From IMG/VR virus record IMGVR_UViG_3300032240_000688, positions 1 to 64,000 of that record: a DNA stretch of 64,000 nt; one strand, written 5' to 3'. The position numbers and the translations under genes were made by a program. This document shows positions 35,658 through 35,729 of the stretch, piece by piece. This stretch comes from a virus. Position 1 is the stretch's first letter. The number at the start of each line of letters is the position of its first letter. Under the pieces are notes generated by a model, which was not told where the DNA came from, did not search any database, and saw only the letters and a program-made list of their open reading frames with translations.

Positions 35658-35716
35658 AGGTTAAGTTCAGCAATCAATTTTCACGCATATCGAAAACTGC
35701 CGTAAGGCATTAACCT
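35658..35716 (+). ncRNA. CAGCAA-box RNA element, copy 5, in the Ro-like gene's 5' UTR
   Basis: A 59-base element: AGGTTAA/TTAACCT closing stem, GTTCAGCAA inside, TTTTC/GAAAA helix, TGCC-GTAA-GGCA hairpin. The 3' strand abuts the ribosome site GAAAGGAAG, so protein binding here could control translation. Confidence 0.6.
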
Positions 35717-35729
35717 GAAAGGAAGTATC

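Follow-up and report, generated by a model that had tools for sequence, protein, structure and literature searches.

The 64,000-nucleotide stretch of viral DNA considered here (the window; positions 1 to 64,000 of IMG/VR virus record IMGVR_UViG_3300032240_000688) contains a gene for a Ro-like protein whose message starts with the same RNA element as the loose copies scattered among the tRNA genes. Thus the protein probably controls its own production: we favor a mechanism in which it binds its own leader and blocks ribosome loading, with the other copies of the element competing for it. The grounds for this reading are positional and evolutionary, namely the observed element family, its link to the gene, the position of the leader, the conservation of its stem, the Ro fold of the protein and the unit of promoter, elements, gene and terminator.

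The element was defined by fixed geometry: AG and 5 nucleotides (nt), 3 nt, CAGCAA, at most 320 nt, and a complementary arm ending in CU, then G. The window contains exactly five copies, all on the plus strand and none on the minus strand (Table 1). The same scan of 118 non-redundant viral loci (1.24 Mb) yielded 198 elements on the strand of the Ro-like gene and none antisense; in these loci five shuffles gave no matches, and eleven other hexamers gave zero to two. The element family is real, conserved and specific. The fixed geometry is required, as a plain pattern search without it was not significant. Single-sequence folding does not clearly set the elements apart from shuffles (z from -0.5 to -2.6, -1.3 for the leader copy), and thus folding energy alone would miss the leader element, which is revealed by comparative evidence. 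Rfam scans at the gathering level found only tRNAs and one GOLLD RNA. The short class in phages comprises 224 distinct elements with a median length of 58 nt and the consensus UUUAGGAUAC-UUA-CAGCAA...CCUGUUU, where the 3' arm is followed by G and then by U (75%). In elements of the copy 4 type, the closing stem was the sole structure found by RNAalifold.

Copy 5, the leader element, is composed of AGGTTAA (35658-35664), GTT (35665-35667), CAGCAA (35668-35673), a loop of 36 nt, TTAACCT (35710-35716) and G35717. A preliminary description of this DNA had placed the end of the copy at 35716, directly ahead of the ribosome-binding sequence and the ATG at 35730. The arm does end there, but the conserved G of the CUG end has to be included, and thus the element and the ribosome-binding sequence touch. 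The length of 107 nt given there for copy 4 (35537-35643) holds, and a G follows, making 108 nt.

Upstream sequences of relatives seeded by the protein (74-99% identity) were compared, and 79 loci were inspected. The leader element was found in all 79, looser cases included. Exact CAGCAA occurs within 130 nt of the ATG in 78 of them, L048 having CAGCAC, and the 3' arm mostly lies 10-16 nt ahead of the ATG (28 nt in L014, 60 nt in L078). In L078 the leader element is followed by a partial duplicate of its 3' half with a Shine-Dalgarno box, which puts the element end 60 nt before the gene start. The stem is imperfect in L070 (one base off, the 3' arm being GCAGTCT instead of GCATTCT), L027 and L039 (one mismatch each) and L062 (two, in the canonical register). 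An unguided alignment was made of 51 distinct leaders, with L014, L070 and L078 left out. In this alignment 93.9% of the cells of the eight-pair stem are paired, against 75.1% in shuffles; both sides have changed in 74 cells, against 23; and the covariation is 0.474, against 0.153, a value reached in none of 500 shuffles (slid controls give at most 0.076). CAGC is invariant in the leaders, and the following AA is conserved in at least 90%. By this comparison, the leader is an RNA structure conserved through compensatory changes, and its place at the start of the Ro-like gene is constant in close relatives, in agreement with the earlier assignment of the element to the translation start region.

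The same gene was reached from the RNA side. IMG/VR was scanned with one stem sequence, and at least 119 stretches were found; although no protein information was used, this search led back to the Ro-like gene. Among the matches listed, 20 of the 22 contigs of at least 60 kb encode DUF7788. The gene start is complete in 56 of the loci, and in 45 of these an element ends 11-33 nt ahead of it; without exception, the 204 elements of the 56 loci are on the strand of the gene. The median distance from the element to a tRNA gene is 7 bp in this set, and it does not exceed 200 bp in 91 of 119 cases.

The protein encoded by the open reading frame (ORF) 35730-37133 matches Pfam DUF2828 and DUF7788 and PHROG 850 ('RNA-binding protein'). 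Its AlphaFold model (pLDDT 89.3) contains the full-length ring plus vWA fold of Ro60/TROVE proteins. It aligns over 407 residues with Ro60 (1yvr; Z 21.8) and equally well with the Ro60-RNA complex (1yvp; Z 21.7), whereas proteins that have only the vWA domain in common reach Z of at most 10.5; the Foldseek match to Ro60 has E 6e-9. Residues D273, S275 and S277 of the vWA metal site DxSxS are invariant in 51 sequences. Judged by the model, which bears on the fold and not on RNA binding, the gene product is a Ro60-fold protein; this agrees with its initial naming. Since the 467-residue protein does not match the Pfam TROVE profile PF05731 and belongs to DUF2828/DUF7788 instead, it is called Ro-like. 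Homologues are present in 676 phage records, and the DUF2828/DUF7788 family also occurs in eukaryotes.

In the window, the promoter, copy 4, copy 5, ORF 35730-37133 and a terminator-like hairpin form one unit. The promoter matches the consensus in all 12 positions and precedes both copies; thus copy 4, lying 13 nt 5' of copy 5, is on the same transcript, as had been noted from the sequence. Leader architecture was examined in 55 distinct leaders. A second element occurs within 60 nt upstream in 41 of them (a promoter-like match accompanies it in 8 and is absent in 33), nine have a promoter and no other element, and five have neither. In nine lineages there is a promoter matching 11-12 of 12 consensus positions, and its -10 hexamer ends 8-14 nt 5' of the element. 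As no other element precedes it there, the leader element is essentially the whole 5' untranslated region of these lineages, which argues against a bystander merely cut out of the transcript.

The recognition unit would be a stem of 7 bp, AGNNNNN/NNNNNCU, with G after its 3' arm, and single-stranded CAGCAA behind a spacer of 3 nt. Free Ro-like protein would bind the leader with a footprint covering the Shine-Dalgarno region, and loading of the 30S subunit would stop. The other copies, short between tRNAs and long at the head of the mRNA, would bind the protein both as ribonucleoprotein partners and as competitors. Synthesis of the protein would then stop once no RNA partner is left unoccupied; through the leader, the protein would sense its excess over them. 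The predicted fold without protein leaves the Shine-Dalgarno box open, so the bound protein would be the switch. That copy 4 is excised as the stable partner RNA, as proposed in the preliminary description, is one possibility; copies 1 and 2 in the tRNA spacers are at least as good candidates.

Several observations weigh against autogenous repression. The CUGU end typical of most other copies is usually without its last U in the leader, which more often ends in CUGA. Among 56 distinct upstream regions of a more distant set, seeded by Campylobacter and KVP40 phages, only 6 have a leader copy. Many Ro-like phages are thus without a leader copy, and the control would be a lineage trait. Finally, a conserved leader could equally well serve activation, message stability or assembly in cis. 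The smaller but real chance is that the protein binds the leader with a positive or neutral effect, protecting the mRNA's 5' end against decay or assembling a ribonucleoprotein on its own message. In the nine lineages the element does occupy the very 5' terminus of the message, where stems protect mRNAs, and the ribosome-binding sequence is outside the stem. However, in most relatives the element is nearer to the ATG than a pure 5'-end shield needs, and its most constant feature is the placement against the Shine-Dalgarno box.

It seems unlikely that copy 5 is another small RNA cut from the transcript, its position reflecting co-transcription and not control. Copies 1 and 2 fill tRNA spacers and could be freed by tRNA processing, elements generally lie close to tRNA genes, and copy 4 is just upstream on the same transcript. 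On the other hand, excision in the nine lineages would leave a message starting at the Shine-Dalgarno box, and the leader has its own 3' context, GAAAGG, instead of the GUUU of the other copies. Very improbable is tuning of translation by the stem as an RNA structure, with no protein involved: compensatory changes do preserve the stem, but a bare stem needs no invariant single-stranded CAGC(AA) common to free copies with other stem sequences. Chance or terminator-like repeats, suggested by the U-rich tails that end copies 1-3, are refuted by the absence of antisense and shuffled matches against 198 sense ones, and the leader copy has no U tail.

Unlike the relatives described above, other phages with Ro-like genes differ in the placement of the elements, and the leader is present in some lineages and absent in others, a distribution that goes beyond the preliminary description. 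Leader copies were also found in phages of Campylobacter, in Synechococcus phage BUCT-ZZ01 and in Stenotrophomonas phage DLP6. The Felix O1-like phage UAB_Phi87 and Shigella phage KPS64 have four elements each among the tRNAs 3' of the gene. A Listeria phage has three elements 5' of the gene; in Listeria phage CKA15 three canonical elements lie 5' of the Ro gene, in a gap without annotation. Region 26,236-26,727 of CKA15 (1737-2228 of L314) is reported as the source of the phage RNA that is most abundant during infection by CKA15 (PMC12282133); this region contains no CAGCAA. No canonical element was found in 30 TROVE loci of cellular Bacteroidota, and a one-stem scan of cellular genomes (257 billion bases) gave two matches, both in genomes without the gene.

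The short elements resemble the Class I RNAs of Dictyostelium, also a point absent from the preliminary description. In a comparison of copy 1 with 4227 Rfam families, the sole match at E of at most 1 was Class I RNA, RF01414 (full length, 25.4 bits, E 0.0032). The same sole match was obtained for elements from L012 (33.8 bits, E 2.6e-5), phage KPS64 (25.7 bits, E 0.0024) and Staphylococcus phage SEP9 (22.9 and 22.1 bits), which had been picked for the whole-Rfam scan since RF01414 had already scored them well. At this cutoff RF01414 is thus the best and sole match for elements from four phage lineages (E from 2.6e-5 to 0.04). In an RF01414 search of the window's own record the three short copies are the top three matches. 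The gathering score of 41.5 is reached by none, the best values being 34.1 bits in phages and 25.4 in the window. In a control, phage T4 gave 24.3 bits (E 0.0024) inside gene 31.2, a chance match in a coding gene. Therefore per-genome E-values are unsafe alone, and the argument rests on the whole-Rfam scans of single elements together with the motif, ends and geometry.

According to Kjellin et al. (PMC7919456), Class I RNAs are about 60 nt long and unique to dictyostelids; they begin with a conserved G, end in CUGU and combine a stem of variable but compensated sequence with an unpaired motif of 11 nt. The phage elements are likewise about 60 nt long, and their ends are joined by a short stem of variable, compensated sequence. 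The unpaired motif beside the 5' arm is CCUUACAGCAA in the Rfam consensus and CUUACAGCAA in the consensus of the short phage class, with 10 of 11 letters identical. Positions C6, C9, A10 and A11 of the motif are present in all canonical phage copies, but they are demanded by the scan rule; T3 is found in 53% of the short copies, copy 1 among them, and is absent from copies 2-5 of the window. The ends AG...CUGU of the phage elements correspond to the conserved starting G and CUGU end of Class I. The short phage class has the Class I length (about 42-65 nt), compensated stem and CUGU end, copy 4 being longer. In contrast to Class I RNAs, the phage elements score below the curated threshold, lack the amoeba promoter and are tied to the Ro-like gene, whereas Class I RNAs have the RRM protein Rnp1A as their reported partner in amoebae. 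The resemblance should be treated with caution, as it may reflect common ancestry or convergence on a similar binding protein. Tentatively, and with some doubt, the phage Ro-associated RNAs and Class I RNAs may form one family, Class I RNAs being ligands of a Ro-like (DUF2828/DUF7788) protein that in phages also regulates itself via the leader. In a literature search no paper was found that connects Class I RNA with Ro60. This unexpected link is the newest part of the findings.

Ro60/Rsr ribonucleoproteins with Y RNAs occur in eukaryotes, Deinococcus and some phages. The phage system is similar in that the Ro60 fold spans the whole protein and small RNAs closed by a stem of both ends are encoded near its gene. 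It differs in that the protein is found by DUF2828/DUF7788 and not by Pfam TROVE, and the Y RNA models of Rfam do not match the phage elements. Earlier papers have considered Ro proteins of phages as well as suspected phage Y RNAs (PMC12282133, PMC7824862); none was found that describes a copy in the leader of the Ro mRNA itself. As in leaders of ribosomal protein genes, a candidate protein-binding element adjoins the ribosome-binding site of the gene for that protein, and structured RNA partners are encoded elsewhere. Here, however, the pair would be Ro and small RNA instead of ribosomal protein and rRNA, and repression is inferred. The phage system is a variant of the Ro/small-RNA kind, with a likely autogenous control element.

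Table 1. Features of the Ro-like gene region and element copies in the window
Feature	Coordinates	Strand	Basis and context
Copy 1, short element	31766..31821	+	Between tRNA-Ile (end 31760) and tRNA-Gln (start 31831); fixed-geometry scan; RF01414 25.4 bits
Copy 2, short element	32964..33019	+	Between tRNA-Met (end 32958) and tRNA-Thr (start 33028); fixed-geometry scan; RF01414 21.6 bits
Copy 3, short element	35397..35457	+	Just 5' of promoter; fixed-geometry scan; RF01414 18.1 bits
Promoter TTGACA-17-TATAAT	35474..35502	+	12/12 consensus positions
Copy 4, long element with internal hairpins, first on mRNA	35537..35644	+	Scan; compensatory changes in the closing stem among relatives
Copy 5, leader element, ends at Shine-Dalgarno box	35658..35717	+	Sequence reading; scan; leader alignment of relatives and stem covariation
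Ribosome-binding sequence GAAAGGAAG, touches element	35717..35725	+	Sequence; unpaired in predicted fold
Ro60-fold protein, 467 aa	35730..37133	+	Pfam DUF2828 + DUF7788; PHROG 850; structure model
Terminator-like hairpin with T tail, closes transcription unit	37178..37209	+	Sequence

In L013, L016, L017, L021 and L072, an extended form of copy 4 was observed just 5' of the Ro-like gene; its inserts measure 214-240 nt, and CUGAACCGAUAUACUGGGGAUGGGG is one of its conserved blocks. In L013, L017 and L072 it has no Rfam match at the gathering score except tRNA; possibly, it is an undescribed structured RNA. In L004, L006, L007 and L011 a tRNA-like sequence is directly followed by the promoter and the copy 4 type RNA. 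Odd or pseudo tRNA annotations of 110-121 nt were found in L096 (5896-6016 and 6026-6138), L083 (6012-6125), L084 (8337-8450) and L090 (5866-5975). In the odd tRNAs of Cronobacter and Citrobacter phages the element is circularly permuted inside a tRNA-like body, the order being 3' arm with CUG, short loop, AG with 5' arm, 3 nt, CAGCA; on visual inspection those of L084 and L090 resemble them, but have CUGCAA. The GOLLD RNA, above its curated score, is at 1478-1941 of L065, a relative of the window phage.

A gene for an aspartyl/asparaginyl hydroxylase-like protein (34616-35356, minus strand) lies between the tRNA array and copy 3. The genes downstream of the unit (37269-39222) encode metallopeptidase-, dual-specificity phosphatase- and AAA_33 kinase-like proteins; the product of 37689-38270 has no Pfam match and is metallophosphoesterase-like by eye. 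It is possible that these genes are RNA-end repair neighbors.

Ro60 and its small RNAs have been studied in contexts from autoimmunity to bacterial RNA quality control. To our knowledge, how the amount of Ro60 is matched to its RNAs is an open question, and the leader may hold the answer. The motif (7-bp stem, NNN, CAGCAA, CUG) is a handle for finding partner RNAs of Ro proteins in phages. If the link to Class I RNA is true, these orphan RNAs, which have been connected with multicellularity in amoebae, would gain relatives, a candidate partner protein and a mechanism.
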